A DNA stretch of 21,570 bases from a virus. The notes under the pieces are model-generated. The model was not told the origin of the DNA. It saw only the letters and a list, made by a program, of their open reading frames with translations, and did no database searches. Shown piece by piece: positions 4,313 through 12,145 of the stretch. The stretch spans positions 1 through 21,570 of the IMG/VR virus record IMGVR_UViG_3300030328_003240; one strand, written 5' to 3'. The position numbers were made by a program, and so were the translations under genes. How positions within the stretch are numbered: the stretch's first letter is position 1; the number at the start of each line of letters is the position of its first letter.

Positions 4313-5254
4313 TTACTCAGAGAAACCCCACTCTTCGGGCAAGTCTGAGCTATTCAACCACCATGATTTTCTCCACTTTCCTGTATGACCACCACATATA
4401 GCAGGGTCATTATTTGCGCATACAAAATCAGGGGACTTAGGTGTCTTTTTATTGTCTCTATTATCAAACACTTTTTCACTACAATAAGGACATTTCAAAT
4501 CTGTCTTTATCTTATTTAGTTCGTGTGATTTATCCACAACATCTCCTAAAATAGCTTGTACATCATCCATTATATCTTCTTTTGGCTCAAATTGTGGTAA
4601 AGCACCTCTTTCAATCTGTTCAAAGAACTTATTTACCTGTTCACTTGTCCAAGAGTTCATATCTTGTGGATATTTTTTAACCTTTGAGTACATGCGCCCC
4701 TGTTCTATAGCAAATTCTCTATGTGCAGGTGTTAAATCCTTACACATAACATCAATTGTGTCTTGAATAAAATCAGACTTAGAACGGGACGCCTCCACTT
4801 TTGGGCTATCATCTGTTTCCTTTACTTCAGTTGCAGGTGTTTCCTCAACTTCCATACTCGCTTCTTCTTCTGATTGAGTAGAACCAGACCATAACTCTAC
4901 ACCGAGACCAAATCTCATACATGCTCTTTTAAAAGCATCGCTCTCTGCGTCTTTGAGATTAGTTCCGTCATTAAGTTTTGGACTATCTAGCTTAAAGGTA
5001 TCAATGTCTCCGACACCCATATAGCTACCCATATCTTCAATAGTTATGGTACCTATTGCACCAACTATTCTTTTCTCTCCCTTGTGCATACCATATATTG
5101 GTTCACATGCCCAAGAGTATTTAACACCACTATCACGTAGTCTTTCTACGTAATGTGCGTGTGGAACGTAATCCCCAAACTTCCCTGAAGGTGCAGGACG
5201 CACCAACTTTTTGGGAAAAGGGGACAACAATTTAATAGCTTTTTTCTCAGCCAT
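4313..5254 (-). CDS. Rad52/Sak-like single-strand annealing protein with C-terminal zinc motif
   Basis: A 313-residue protein. The N-terminal domain (about 10-122) has the Rad52/Sak-type pattern: YVPHAHYVERLRDSGVKYSW, then a β-rich RIVGAIGTITIED, and the signature DGTNLKDAESDAFKRACMRF followed by GLGVELW. These proteins bind and anneal complementary single strands during phage recombination and replication. A long acidic linker follows, then a C-terminal cysteine cluster (CPYC at 255-258, C279, C287 and a nearby His) that should bind zinc and resembles the C-termini of some phage ssDNA-binding proteins. The ATG has GGAGAG at good spacing. No recombination exonuclease is evident except the possible nuclease immediately downstream. 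Confidence 0.85.
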   Translation of the reverse strand: MAEKKAIKLLSPFPKKLVRPAPSGKFGDYVPHAHYVERLRDSGVKYSWACEPIYGMHKGEKRIVGAIGTITIEDMGSYMGVGDIDTFKLDSPKLNDGTNLKDAESDAFKRACMRFGLGVELWSGSTQSEEEASMEVEETPATEVKETDDSPKVEASRSKSDFIQDTIDVMCKDLTPAHREFAIEQGRMYSKVKKYPQDMNSWTSEQVNKFFEQIERGALPQFEPKEDIMDDVQAILGDVVDKSHELNKIKTDLKCPYCSEKVFDNRDNKKTPKSPDFVCANNDPAICGGHTGKWRKSWWLNSSDLPEEWGFSE

Positions 5255-6831: not shown

Positions 6832-6846
6832 GGTTATAGAAGAATT

Positions 6847-6996
6847 GAAGTGGTGTTCACTAAGGTAATTATATATAACGTGAGTGTCATTACCCGTTCG
6901 TAGCTCTCTTACGACTCTATTCCACTTCTAGTGAGAGTAACCATAAACTAGGAAAGGAGAACTAGCCATATCAGTTGCCTGATATAGATTACTCTC
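6847..6996. ncRNA. Two adjacent multi-helix structured elements (candidate RNA)
   Basis: This roughly 200-base spacer holds no gene but two nested inverted-repeat domains. Domain 1: GAAGTGG (6847-6853) pairs CCACTTC (6922-6928), enclosing GGTAAT/ATTACC (6864-6869, 6889-6894) and TCGTA/TACGA (6898-6902, 6910-6914). Domain 2: GAGAGTAA (6933-6940) pairs TTACTCTC (6989-6996), enclosing a CTAG-CTAG pair (6949-6952, 6963-6966 approximately) and the perfect hairpin ATATCAG/CTGATAT (6968-6974, 6979-6985). On the minus strand that last loop is GCAA, a stable GNRA tetraloop, favouring a minus-strand RNA. It lies between the VWA-gene stop and the leaderless promoter, so it would be a 3' UTR or independent RNA. 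No known class recognised. Confidence 0.5.
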
Positions 6997-7000
6997 CTAA

Positions 7001-8530
7001 TTATTGTACCTTATTCAATTCCAATGCGAAACGTTTTACCTCATCAATATCAGCAAGTCGCATTATTCCATTTCTTAGCATAATTTGTTTACAATCCTGT
7101 AGTAATCCATATGCATTAGAATTATTTCTACCAAATACATACATATCCGATACCCATATTCTTTTAGGTGGTTGTTTTGCTAACCAACGTAAAGCCATGC
7201 CGTCTATAACATTTCCTTCACCACTATGTAAATCAAGATAATTTTCATCTACACGTTTACCATTTTTAGCTATGATACGTAAGTTTCCTTTATCGTAACT
7301 TCCGTTATACATAGCAATAGTAACAGCAGGAACTTCTTGCATGATATCTAGTATGTCCTGTCCATTAAAACTCATTGAACCACTTGCGTCAATGAGAACA
7401 GTACCACCATATACACGTTGCTTTTGTGAAAAGACTTGCTTATCTATACAATATCTATTCATATATCTAGGTATAGTCCCATAATCCATTGGTCTATATT
7501 TACGACCACCTTTTATGCGACCTTGTAGATTAACTGTAAGCTCGGGATTATGTGTTTTCATATCTCCCCATGCAGTTTTGTAATTATCTTTATCTACTTG
7601 ATAATCCATACCTCTACGTGTTGTATTACCTTTTTCTAACCTATCAAATATTTCCTTTTTATTACGTGAATATAAGTCATCAACAGTTAACTCTTTATCA
7701 CGTCTATTATAAGACCTATTGTTTTGTTCCTTTTCTTCTTCTTCAAGACAAGGCTCACACTCACATTCTTCCTCATGTCTTTCAGAATTAGGTTGTTGTT
7801 CTCTAAGGCTTTCCAACACTTCTTCAGGTGTTGGTTTATCTGCAAACTCAGCAAGTAAAGGCGCTAATTCTTTAGCAACGTTTCTTGTATGGTTGTAAGA
7901 TATTTTAGCTCTTAGAGTATATCCCGTATGATTTTTAATCATTTTGAGATAAAAGTATTTAGCTTTTTGAATAGCCCAATCAATATCCAACTCTCTTGCA
8001 TATGTAAGCTCTTTTCTTTCAAGAACTTCTTGATATACGTCCATAAAGATATTCCACTCAATGCCATCAGGTTCTTTCACACCCCAAGAACTTCTATGTA
8101 AAGTTTCATAATCCCATGCGCATGCTAGTAAATATTTAACTATGTCTGCAACAGAAGATGTATAAATTAGTTTTGCTACTAAACGTTTAGTATCTTCCAC
8201 ACATCTGACAGGTTTATTTATAAACAAACCATGTCTGTTAAGTAAATAGTGAACTCTCACTTCTTCACATAACTCTACTGCCATAGCACTTTCATTTTCT
8301 TTTAGCCTACCCATAGTTTTGGGAGACCACTTAACGTGTCCTAATTCGTGCCTTCTAATCATTTTGCTATGATTTTCTCCACACTCAATACATTTTCCGT
8401 CAAGTGGAACATACATCTTTCTGTCAAGATTGTTTGTTGCAGGTTGGTCATACTCTTCATGTATAGTCCAACCTGTTTCTCCTGAAACTATTTCGGGATA
8501 AGGAACGTGTTTTCTAGTATTCCTCGTCAT
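7001..8530 (-). CDS. VWA-domain protein with HExxH metallopeptidase-like motif (MoxR partner)
   Basis: A 509-residue protein. N-terminal part: a CIEC pair (about residue 47), then RRHELGHVKW with an HExxH zinc-peptidase motif (61-65) and, about 20 residues on, an acidic ELCEEVRVHYLL helix able to supply a third ligand. The middle is helical, with a CECEPCLEEEEKE acidic cysteine-rich linker near 256-268. The C-terminal VWA domain has an intact start of the metal-binding site, LIDASGSMS (about 379-387). This resembles cellular DUF2201-type and CobT-like partners of MoxR ATPases. I prefer the ATG at 8530 (17-base overlap with the ATPase gene); an ATG at 8551 is also possible. Substrate unknown; peptidase activity is inferred from the motif only. 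Confidence 0.8.
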   Translation of the reverse strand: MTRNTRKHVPYPEIVSGETGWTIHEEYDQPATNNLDRKMYVPLDGKCIECGENHSKMIRRHELGHVKWSPKTMGRLKENESAMAVELCEEVRVHYLLNRHGLFINKPVRCVEDTKRLVAKLIYTSSVADIVKYLLACAWDYETLHRSSWGVKEPDGIEWNIFMDVYQEVLERKELTYARELDIDWAIQKAKYFYLKMIKNHTGYTLRAKISYNHTRNVAKELAPLLAEFADKPTPEEVLESLREQQPNSERHEEECECEPCLEEEEKEQNNRSYNRRDKELTVDDLYSRNKKEIFDRLEKGNTTRRGMDYQVDKDNYKTAWGDMKTHNPELTVNLQGRIKGGRKYRPMDYGTIPRYMNRYCIDKQVFSQKQRVYGGTVLIDASGSMSFNGQDILDIMQEVPAVTIAMYNGSYDKGNLRIIAKNGKRVDENYLDLHSGEGNVIDGMALRWLAKQPPKRIWVSDMYVFGRNNSNAYGLLQDCKQIMLRNGIMRLADIDEVKRFALELNKVQ

Positions 8531-9670: not shown

Positions 9671-10180
9671 TTATTCCTCCTCCCGTGCGTGTTCTTTTAG
9701 AAATTCTGATATTTCATCACTTATACCACCAATGTTTTCATTGACAGCTTCTTCTGTTTGCCTTCTCAATAATGGTTCGTTTTGCTTTATAAACGCTTGT
9801 ACAGAAGTTGGTTCTTGCATCATGTATTCCTGTAAAAGACCTTCATGTGTTAACCATTGACGGAAATCATCTAATATCTCTATATCAAATTCGTCTCCTT
9901 TATCAAGTACAAAGTCATGAAGTACCAAAGGATATTTCATCATAACCTCTGTCTTTCTTGCCATGTCTATTGTCAAGGCTCTGTTTATAGCATTTTGTAG
10001 AGACGTCTCTTGTAATTCGTATCTTGAAACCAAAATTTTTCTTTTCTTAAACATATCTCCTATGCTCATATGAACTTCGTTAAATTTATCTTCAAGAAAG
10101 TAAGCAACTTCTACATTATATGTATGCATTGTTCCTGTACTGACCTCTACAAAGTCTCTTTCTACTTCTTTTTCACTCAA
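9671..10180 (-). CDS. Hypothetical 169-aa protein, TTG start
   Basis: A soluble, acidic protein. It begins MSEKEVERDFVEVSTGTMHT, has a β-like stretch (HTYNVEVAYFLEDKFNEVHM), a helical centre (NAINRALTIDMARKTEVMMK) and an acidic helical C-terminus ending EFLKEHAREEE. No family recognised. The start codon is TTG with AAAAGGAG six bases upstream; no ATG fits. A multi-helix structured element (10203-10308) occupies the spacer just upstream of the ribosome binding site, so expression may be RNA-controlled. Confidence 0.7.
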   Translation of the reverse strand: MSEKEVERDFVEVSTGTMHTYNVEVAYFLEDKFNEVHMSIGDMFKKRKILVSRYELQETSLQNAINRALTIDMARKTEVMMKYPLVLHDFVLDKGDEFDIEILDDFRQWLTHEGLLQEYMMQEPTSVQAFIKQNEPLLRRQTEEAVNENIGGISDEISEFLKEHAREEE

Positions 10181-10202: not shown

Positions 10203-10308
10203 GTAGTGCTGTGCAGAGCTAGACGTTCCTTTCAACGTTTTGTATTCTGCTTTTTATCGGTTGCCCGACACTAGACCTAATCTACCTATGTAGACCGACA
10301 AGCACTAC
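10203..10308 (-). ncRNA. Five-helix structured leader element (candidate cis-RNA)
   Basis: The spacer between two minus-strand genes holds five nested inverted repeats. P1 closes it: GTAGTGCT (10203-10210) with AGCACTAC (10301-10308), the latter overlapping the upstream stop codon. Inside, as read on the minus strand: P2 TCTAC-ATAG-GTAGA; P3 TCGG-GCAA-CCGA with a GNRA tetraloop; P4 GCAGA/TCTGC (10246-10250 with 10213-10217) enclosing P5 ACGTT-GAAAGG-AACGT. After P1 come AAATTATTAAAAGGAG and the TTG start. This compact multi-branch plan resembles riboswitches or other cis-acting RNAs in general form; I cannot match it to a known class. Confidence 0.6.
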
Positions 10309-10535
10309 TTTGCTTCCTGCTGGGTTGCTTTGTGTTTAATTTCGTCTATCACCACGTAATCATTTGCACCATACACTTTTTGCTTAGGTGTATTGTCATC
10401 TCCATATGTAATGGTTATTCGTCCAAATGCTTTTGATATACTAATGATAGGTAAACTTTCATACCCAACAGTAATCACATAATCCTCATTAGTTATATCT
10501 TTTGCACGTTTTGATAACATTTTAGGCTTTTTCAT
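10305..10535 (-). CDS. Hypothetical 76-aa protein
   Basis: A small basic protein (MKKPKMLSKRAKDITNEDYV... ending HKATQQEAK). It is β-rich in the middle (VITVGYESLPIISISKAFGR, then ITITYGDDN and YVVIDEI), which suggests a small β-barrel. Its ATG directly follows the stop of the 139-aa gene (TAAATG) with only a weak GGTGG site, so translation is probably coupled. Its stop codon lies in the 5' arm of the structured element downstream. No family recognised. Confidence 0.7.
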   Translation of the reverse strand: MKKPKMLSKRAKDITNEDYVITVGYESLPIISISKAFGRITITYGDDNTPKQKVYGANDYVVIDEIKHKATQQEAK

Positions 10536-11295: not shown

Positions 11296-11488
11296 TATTT
11301 TCTCCTTCGTTAAATTCGTTCTGTATTTTTACAGCACGTCGTCTCATATTTATAAGAGACTTTTCTATATTCCACTTTAGCTTGATTACTTCGCCAAGAT
11401 ACTGACCAAATGCCCATGCTATTGCGCATATATATAGAAAGAATAAAAAGAGCAATACAAATGCGTGAAATGGTATTATTTCATTCAT
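11270..11488 (-). CDS. Small single-span membrane protein
   Basis: A 72-residue protein with one transmembrane helix at about residues 9-29 (AFVLLFLFFLYICAIAWAFG) and a long basic, helical cytoplasmic tail (KLKWNIEKSLINMRRRAVKI). I chose the ATG at 11488, which overlaps the previous stop (ATGA); another in-frame ATG lies two codons earlier. It could be an early inner-membrane protein, for example for superinfection exclusion or host takeover, but nothing specific identifies it. Confidence 0.65.
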   Translation of the reverse strand: MNEIIPFHAFVLLFLFFLYICAIAWAFGQYLGEVIKLKWNIEKSLINMRRRAVKIQNEFNEGENSGRRHKNS

Positions 11489-11672
11489 CTTCATGCAAAC
11501 TGCGTCGTTTCAGGGCTTTTTCAACCTGATAAAGAACGCTTTCTTTATGCATAGCAACATAACTTTGCACAGGTGTACTACCTTTTTCTTTCCACATATC
11601 TAAGTCATTAACAATCCATGTAAGAATTTCTACAAGGTCGTCTTTACTTAGACTTTTGAGTATTTCTCTCAT
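11481..11672 (-). CDS. Hypothetical 63-aa helical protein
   Basis: A small soluble protein beginning MREILKSLSKDDLVEILTWI, with helices to the end (YQVEKALKRRSLHEDE). The ATG at 11672 is chosen because AAAGGAGG precedes it at good spacing; an upstream in-frame ATG at 11708 would lie inside the structured spacer. It is coupled by ATGA to the membrane-protein gene. No family recognised. Confidence 0.65.
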   Translation of the reverse strand: MREILKSLSKDDLVEILTWIVNDLDMWKEKGSTPVQSYVAMHKESVLYQVEKALKRRSLHEDE

Positions 11673-11691
11673 ATTTCCTCCTTTGCTATTA

Positions 11692-11873
11692 TAAATAGCT
11701 TGTAACACACAAACTTGTAAGCGTTTCTATCGCCCTACTTACAATTACACCTTTTATCTAGCGTTAGCGTTTCTTGATATCACAGTATCAATCAGCGTCT
11801 TGTTTCAGCATTTGTCACAATACTAGAATTTACTGATATACCTCAGGTATATTTATGTGCTACAAGCTATTTA
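11692..11873 (-). repeat. Terminal-inverted-repeat spacer element, copy A
   Basis: TAAATAGCTTGTA (11692-11704) is exactly complementary to TACAAGCTATTTA (11861-11873); after one A-C mismatch CACA pairs with TGTG. The right arm includes the stop codon of the upstream 37-aa gene. Inside lie further hairpins (minus strand): TTGTAAG/CTTACAA, TTGATA-CTGTGA-TATCAA and ATATACC-TGA-GGTATAT. The arms share a 17-base and a 15-base exact repeat with copy B (12006-12080), while the interiors differ in length and sequence. The region is otherwise non-coding. Confidence 0.7.
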
Positions 11874-11984
11874 CTCTACATCTAATATTTCATAGATGTC
11901 TTTTTCTGAAACATTCCATAATATTGATAACCATTTTATTATTTTTGCTCTTTTATCGCTTATAGTATTTTTTGTTTTAGCCAT
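11871..11984 (-). CDS. 37-aa small protein between structured spacers
   Basis: A 37-codon frame, MAKTKNTISDKRAKIIKWLS and then ILWNVSEKDIYEILDVE. AAGGAG lies 8 bases before the ATG. It reads as two short helices, like a minimal helix-turn-helix, but is too short to be sure. It is flanked on both sides by the paired terminal-repeat elements (copies A and B), and its stop is part of the copy A stem. Confidence 0.6.
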   Translation of the reverse strand: MAKTKNTISDKRAKIIKWLSILWNVSEKDIYEILDVE

Positions 11985-12005
11985 TTATTTATTCTCCTTA
12001 ATAGA

Positions 12006-12080
12006 TAGCTTGTAACACACAATTACACAACCTATTCGGTTACCTTACCAGCCATTAACCTCGTCATGTGCTACAAGCTA
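12006..12080 (-). repeat. Terminal-inverted-repeat spacer element, copy B
   Basis: TAGCTTGTA (12006-12014) pairs with TACAAGCTA (12072-12080), then A-C mismatch, then CACA/TGTG, exactly as in copy A. Inside, GGTTA (12038-12042) pairs with TAACC (12056-12060). TAGCTTGTAACACACAA (12006-12022) and ATGTGCTACAAGCTA (12066-12080) are identical to copy A termini. It precedes the AAGGAG of the 37-aa gene. Confidence 0.7.
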
Positions 12081-12096
12081 CCTACATAGTACGTAT

Positions 12097-12119
12097 AGCA
12101 ACAGGGCAATTGCTTTTTT
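12097..12119 (+). terminator. Weak terminator-like hairpin, plus orientation
   Basis: AGCAA (12097-12101) pairs TTGCT (12110-12114), followed by a run of T on the plus strand. The stem is only 5 bp. If functional it would stop antisense transcription entering the leftward operon. The surrounding spacer 12081-12145 has also a half copy of the type II motif (TAATTATATTAAGC at 12132-12145) and no gene. Confidence 0.25.
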
Positions 12120-12145
12120 ATGTAAGTAGCTGTAATTATATTAAG

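Follow-up and report, generated by a model that had tools for sequence, protein, structure and literature searches.

In T7-type phages, RNase III hairpins lie between the genes of the mRNA; their stems are long, stop codons fall near or inside the stem, and a stem of about 21 bp is long enough for the enzyme. GOLLD and ROOL RNAs are likewise found in phages. In integrons, arrayed gene cassettes are exchanged between conserved stem-forming ends. Comparative genomics has further yielded orphan structured RNA candidates, among them riboswitch-like RNAs and phage RNA motifs, as described in PMC2864571.

The locus considered here belongs to a 21,570-nucleotide stretch of viral DNA (IMG/VR record IMGVR_UViG_3300030328_003240), termed the window. 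Positions 10203–10308 hold a real RNA-like element, unique to date, that lies between two genes of the phage. The novelty lies in the cassette system described below rather than in this element, which taken alone is one orphan RNA.

A five-helix RNA between two genes

Read on the minus strand from 10308 to 10203, the element folds at −34.0 kcal/mol (z −3.9), a stability matched by none of 200 shuffles. Pair probabilities of its helices mostly exceed 0.95 in a 211-base context. In a 241-base context the minimum free energy structure favours another outer pairing, and the centroid retains the element. An identical copy of the element lies in the related contig L001. The element, its helices (from pair probabilities) and its neighbours are as follows.

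10203–10308, minus strand: whole element, a five-helix intercistronic RNA (P1 to P5); predicted fold, identical copy in L001, no Rfam match
10301–10308 with 10203–10210, minus strand: P1, closing stem, 8 bp
10298–10299 with 10211–10212, minus strand: extension of P1, 2 bp
10290–10296 with 10279–10285, minus strand: P2, 7 bp
10265–10270 with 10255–10260, minus strand: P3, 6 bp, GCAA tetraloop
10246–10250 with 10213–10217, minus strand: P4, 5 bp
10234–10238 with 10223–10227, minus strand: P5, 5 bp
10305–10535, minus strand: 76-aa ORF (p76) upstream of the element, with homologues in L001, L065, L066, L068 and L214
10187–10192, minus strand: Shine-Dalgarno-like (SD) AAGGAG of p169, predicted unpaired
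9671–10180, minus strand: 169-aa ORF (p169) with a TTG start, a conserved family of 98 ORFs

An earlier note on this DNA had described an 8-bp closing stem with four internal helices, a GCAA tetraloop helix on the minus strand and an overlap with a stop codon. Minus-strand folding and the pair probabilities bear out this architecture, the tetraloop is that of P3, and the TAG of the 76-aa ORF (10305–10307) lies inside the 5′ strand of P1, whose strands are GUAGUGCU and AGCACUAC. Between the 3′ end of the element (10203) and the TTG at 10180 lie 22 bases, where the note gave 25. The same note considered the density of helices high for spacer DNA. The fold is indeed well defined, but its energy is unexceptional: of 2147 minus-strand tiles scanned in the window, 5.6% reach a z of −3.9 or lower, as do 4.4% of the coding tiles, and many intergenic tiles fold better than the element. 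Because 5.6% of the tiles are equally stable, the folding energy does not by itself establish a function.

Rfam (release 15) gave no match in the window at the gathering threshold, and at E ≤ 10 the only match in the region of the element was a sub-threshold CRISPR-DR40 located outside it. This agrees with the earlier note, which recognised no known riboswitch class, and a structured RNA outside the known classes is supported as far as possible. The only homologue, at 4834–4939 of L001, is identical to the element and so offers no variation within its helices. For the RNA classes around it, described below, pairing does prove to be conserved in homologues, the point on which the earlier note had let its proposal hang. 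An identical run of 161 bases spans the element in the two phages, and the surrounding genes differ by about 6%. The 76-aa gene has 3 differences between them, so that the 161-base identity forms part of a generally conserved block; it could stem from recent recombination. A covariance model of the element (R1), run on 96 sources comprising 1.0 Mb of related loci, recovered the window and L001 only. Sequence and loop-pattern scans of a viral collection returned L001 and otherwise chance-like matches; 18 further loop-pattern matches were rejected as relatives, since they are chance-like and none fits the model of the element significantly. For the surrounding 1.1 kb, a search of 50,697 phage records turned up no similar DNA.

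The gene downstream

The SD of p169 is predicted to be unpaired with a probability of 0.78–0.98. No terminator-like site was found 3′ of the element and no anti-SD segment was seen, leaving the element with neither form of riboswitch expression platform, SD sequestration or terminator. Nor is it an aptamer bound to one gene type, as the contents of the slot vary in relatives, with at least 28 different interiors before p169. A free SD and a slot indifferent to the gene disfavour a dedicated sensor regulating p169. These observations speak against the earlier proposal of a cis-regulatory RNA of the TTG gene. Of the broader wording in that note, a cis-regulatory or small stable RNA of the phage, the phage origin stands, given the terminase and the virus record, while cis regulation of the TTG gene is not supported; a small stable RNA is possible.

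The p169 family has no Pfam or PHROG match common to several members. An AlphaFold model of p169 (pLDDT 80) gave no fold match, and a known RNA-binding fold was rejected on that ground.

The same slot in related phages

Contigs from uncultured phages, about 170 of them, were reached through the neighbouring genes. An AAA-type gene (AAA_5) located downstream recruited 76 contigs, a tblastn search with the 169-aa protein gave matches to 42 sequences, and an iterated profile of p169 collected the 98 family ORFs across all fetched loci. It was p169 that led to L001 as one close relative. The window terminase was found in 11 of 12 related records searched, at 51–76% identity, so the cassette carriers look like one phage family. 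Its relatives also include L215 and L216, contigs binned with a MAG of the Gammaproteobacteria (63%) and one of the Actinomycetota (79%), respectively.

The gap upstream of p169 homologues is commonly 90–390 bases long and strongly folded. Of 78 contigs, 59 have a 110-base tile with z ≤ −3 in the 330 bases that precede p169 (5 tiles each), and 13 have one inside p169 (3 tiles each). In L065, L066 and L068, which carry p76, cassette arrays occupy the slot after this gene. L214 also has p76 and was set aside as a slot relative, other genes sitting in its slot.

Other contents were seen as well. In L006, L007, L009 and L010, G-rich repeats (..AAGTTTTTATTT..GGTCAGGATAGGTGGGG..) that are not cassettes lie upstream of the 169-aa homologue. 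At L028 4321–4624 and in the L056 slot, the 5′ arm of the last hairpin recurs at the SD (ACAAAGAAAGA..GGAG and ACAAAGAAAGAAAGGA), an arrangement that would allow SD sequestration.

A class of exchangeable RNA cassettes

Many gaps before p169 homologues contain the stem GTAGGTAGCTTGTAGCACATA...TGTGTGTTACAAGCTATCTAT. This stem defines the cassette class: GUAGRUAGC...GCUAUYUAU, with a covarying inner stem, encloses one of about 99 interchangeable interiors. A scan for the 5′ arm gave at least 120 stretches, and 268 cassette elements were collected in 152 contig pieces. The stems are about 21 bp long; a structure search showed that their sequence-constant part is mainly the outer nine base pairs and that the inner stem is freely rewritten. 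In a set of 40 different arm pairs, 98.6% of cells are paired. Selection of arms at 10 or more of 12 inner pairs biases this figure and has far less effect on the range of pair types. Double changes occur in 13 of 21 pairs, and stem covariation is 0.572, against 0.183 in shuffled data and no more than 0.134 when partners are slid.

Several properties bear on whether the cassettes act as DNA or RNA. Both flanking large genes lie on the same strand as the cassette in 157 elements and on the opposite strand in 11, and G-U pairs are conserved on the gene strand. The strand bias and the G-U pairs point to RNA and, together with the covariation, disfavour hairpins acting at the DNA level, such as an origin or transposon ends. 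Exchange of cassettes at the stems is nevertheless a DNA-level event.

The interiors vary greatly in length and form 99 clusters, 38 of which comprise two or more different sequences. Sequence conservation across diverged phages is seen for many types, and covariation was present in the one cluster examined. A single interior can precede unrelated genes of different families, and the 28 interiors directly before p169 are as many clusters. Hairpins resembling a tRNA T arm (e.g. GTAGGTTCAAATCCTAC) occur at L057 3648–3792, L097 3224–3367 and L054 1326–1440, with further ones at L018 1473–1627 and L004 4450–4553. Only few interiors have them, so tRNA mimicry was rejected as a general property of cassettes; ARAGORN, run on the window only, reported no tRNA. 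Palindromic self-dimerising loops were likewise discarded, being only modestly enriched (7 versus 1.7 at 12 nt or longer).

An exact 18-mer of the stem occurs in none of 84,980 bacterial and archaeal species genomes, Rfam matched nothing in 23 relatives at gathering or relaxed thresholds, and blastn of one 304-nt cassette region found it absent from 50,697 annotated phage records. A literature search, thin on subscription journals, found no paper describing the stem sequence.

Cassettes and other folded RNAs of the window

A search of the window for the cassette core identified two cassettes and did not return 10203–10308.

12077–12130, minus strand: leader hairpin before cassette 1, read from the sequence
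12001–12085, minus strand: cassette RNA 1, stem GTAGGTAGCTTGTAGCACATG / TGTGTGTTACAAGCTATCTAT, 43-nt interior (core search, class covariation)
11691–11874, minus strand: cassette RNA 2, similar stem arms, 142-nt interior (core search)
11691–12085, minus strand: block of cassette 1, a 37-aa ORF and cassette 2 (alignment with L001)

L001 has one different cassette in place of the 11691–12085 block. Alignment puts the breakpoints at the stem cores, which is direct evidence of cassette exchange. Cassette 2 ends just before an SD and ATG within the ORF listed as 11481–11708. The arms of the leader hairpin are GCTACTTACAT (12120–12130) and ATGTAGGTAGC (12077–12087), with an inner hairpin that has a CCCU loop. 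Its 3′ arm overlaps the core of cassette 1, so the two pairings would be expected to compete. Leader hairpins preceding cassettes seem in general to draw on this core.

The element shares some of these properties. It lies on the gene strand in an intercistronic slot and forms a stem-closed folded domain. Its 5′ end differs from the cassette core at 5 of 9 positions, and among the 96 sources its interior occurs in the window and L001 only rather than being common to other phages. Without a cassette core or a common interior, the element is not in the cassette class. Cassette arrays follow p76 in L065, L066 and L068, and the element is therefore read as another intercistronic RNA occupying this slot. 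It appears to be a further occupant with a closing stem of its own, linked to the cassettes by position and style only.

A weak match of the GCAA hairpin led to a second RNA class of about 160 bases.

6844–7001, minus strand: new conserved RNA directly 3′ of a 516-aa gene (covariation, 48 contigs)

This RNA consists of a GCAA hairpin, a UCCUUUCC loop, a hairpin with a nearly invariant RGAGARY loop and a closing stem; a pseudoknot of CUC..UUCC with GGAA..GAG is possible. Among 14 sequences, covariation is 0.672 against 0.182 in shuffled data, and both sides have changed in 13 of 17 pairs. A model of the class (R2) found 48 sources with E values from 4e-27 to 7e-10, and Rfam gave no match to it. 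The element scores 12.2 bits against R2 (E 0.32), which is not significant.

Many intercistronic gaps in the leftward region of the window hold a strong fold. Four copies of one hairpin (TAAYTATATTAAGC...) lie on the minus strand at about 14246, 13958, 13712 and 12977, and this hairpin appears to begin at the TAA that ends the ORF upstream. Strong hairpins of the CTCTCTACAGAGTAGAGAG type, with z down to about −7, lie on the same strand at about 14610, 13640 and 12868; in two of these three, GACGACGACAAA-like sequence lies between the hairpin and the next gene.

What the element may do

The reading tentatively preferred here is that such slots carry folded RNA payloads whose function is independent of the flanking gene and which are exchanged at conserved stems, the element being one slot occupant. 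The element would be a structured domain within a leftward polycistronic mRNA, assuming that the two genes share one transcript, and its slot is one filled in this lineage by exchangeable folded RNA pieces, which in many relatives are cassettes. Once ribosomes leave the p76 stop codon in P1, the domain could close and offer its internal loops to a partner, and p169 would be translated independently from its free SD. The payload would most likely bind a host or phage factor, either within the mRNA or after processing, and payloads would be gained and lost by recombination at the conserved stems. The element presumably works like the cassettes. Rather unlikely, if conceivable, is that the lineage maintains a combinatorial library of RNA payloads on a common stem, used as decoys or aptamers against host or defence factors, with the element as a payload of this kind whose closing stem differs.

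The main rival is somewhat unlikely as well. It holds that the element is a generic cis element of the polycistronic mRNA, a folded spacer for processing, stability or translational insulation whose interior has no function of its own, comparable to the RNase III sites or stabilising hairpins that separate genes in phage early mRNAs. The strong folding of many leftward gaps fits this, as do cassettes that keep the strand of their genes and have stems of about 21 bp, sufficient for RNase III. A generic hairpin, however, has no need of interiors that covary and are conserved across diverged phages, and P1 has merely 8+2 bp, short of the roughly 20 bp of continuous duplex that characterizes an RNase III site. 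A purely structural role in the mRNA accounts for the stems and not for the sequence conservation of the interiors.

A fold without function is improbable. It would be a chance structure in an AT-rich spacer, undiverged between two near-identical phages, and both the proportion of window tiles that are as stable and the failure to find a diverged homologue are in keeping with it. Against chance stand five long helices whose probabilities approach 1 and which form a single closed junction, the 200 shuffles, a slot that is structured in most relatives, and the lack of any substitution in the element where both flanking genes have changed between the window and L001. Improbable too is a riboswitch or protein-binding autoregulatory leader of p169. 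In its favour, the junction is compact, has several helices and a GNRA loop, and lies immediately before a gene that starts with TTG and has a good SD. But the SD is free, there is no terminator, and no aptamer is conserved beyond one identical copy; moreover, relatives show many unrelated RNAs before p169 and one RNA before unrelated genes.

This phage family apparently shuffles structured RNA modules between genes as other phages shuffle protein-coding genes. The folded pieces make up a large set not catalogued before and point to a new RNA layer in phages. If the interiors act on host factors, they would be a new kind of RNA phage weapon or regulator; if they act on their own mRNA, they would add up to a large body of phage mRNA elements still to be explored. 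In both cases, the roughly 99 interiors are directly testable.

Comparison with known systems

Long stems, a position between genes and stop codons near or inside the stem recall the RNase III hairpins of T7-type phages. The interiors here are conserved and swapped, unlike those hairpins, and the closing stem of the element falls short of the length typical of an RNase III site. The orphan candidates of comparative genomics, as PMC2864571 presents them, are similarly compact, intergenic, gene-strand RNAs with covarying multi-helix structures and no known ligand. In contrast, about 99 exchangeable interiors here share a common stem and stand before unrelated genes, and no Rfam model matches. 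GOLLD and ROOL are also elaborately folded noncoding RNAs, according to PMC12286853. They are far larger than the RNAs here, which have no Rfam match.

TIGR-Tas guide RNA arrays, as outlined in PMC12045711, share with the cassettes repeated RNA units that have constant and variable parts and occur in phages. Unlike their short guides, the variable parts here are recurrent folded domains of tens to more than 100 nt. TIGR-Tas itself was rejected because PF01798 (Nop domain) is absent from 12 related records, with control genomes positive, and retron- or DGR-type systems because 12 relatives have no RT domain. The present cassettes resemble those of integron arrays in that units with conserved stem-forming ends are exchanged; here, unlike in integrons, these units consist chiefly of RNA structure, with gene-strand G-U pairs.
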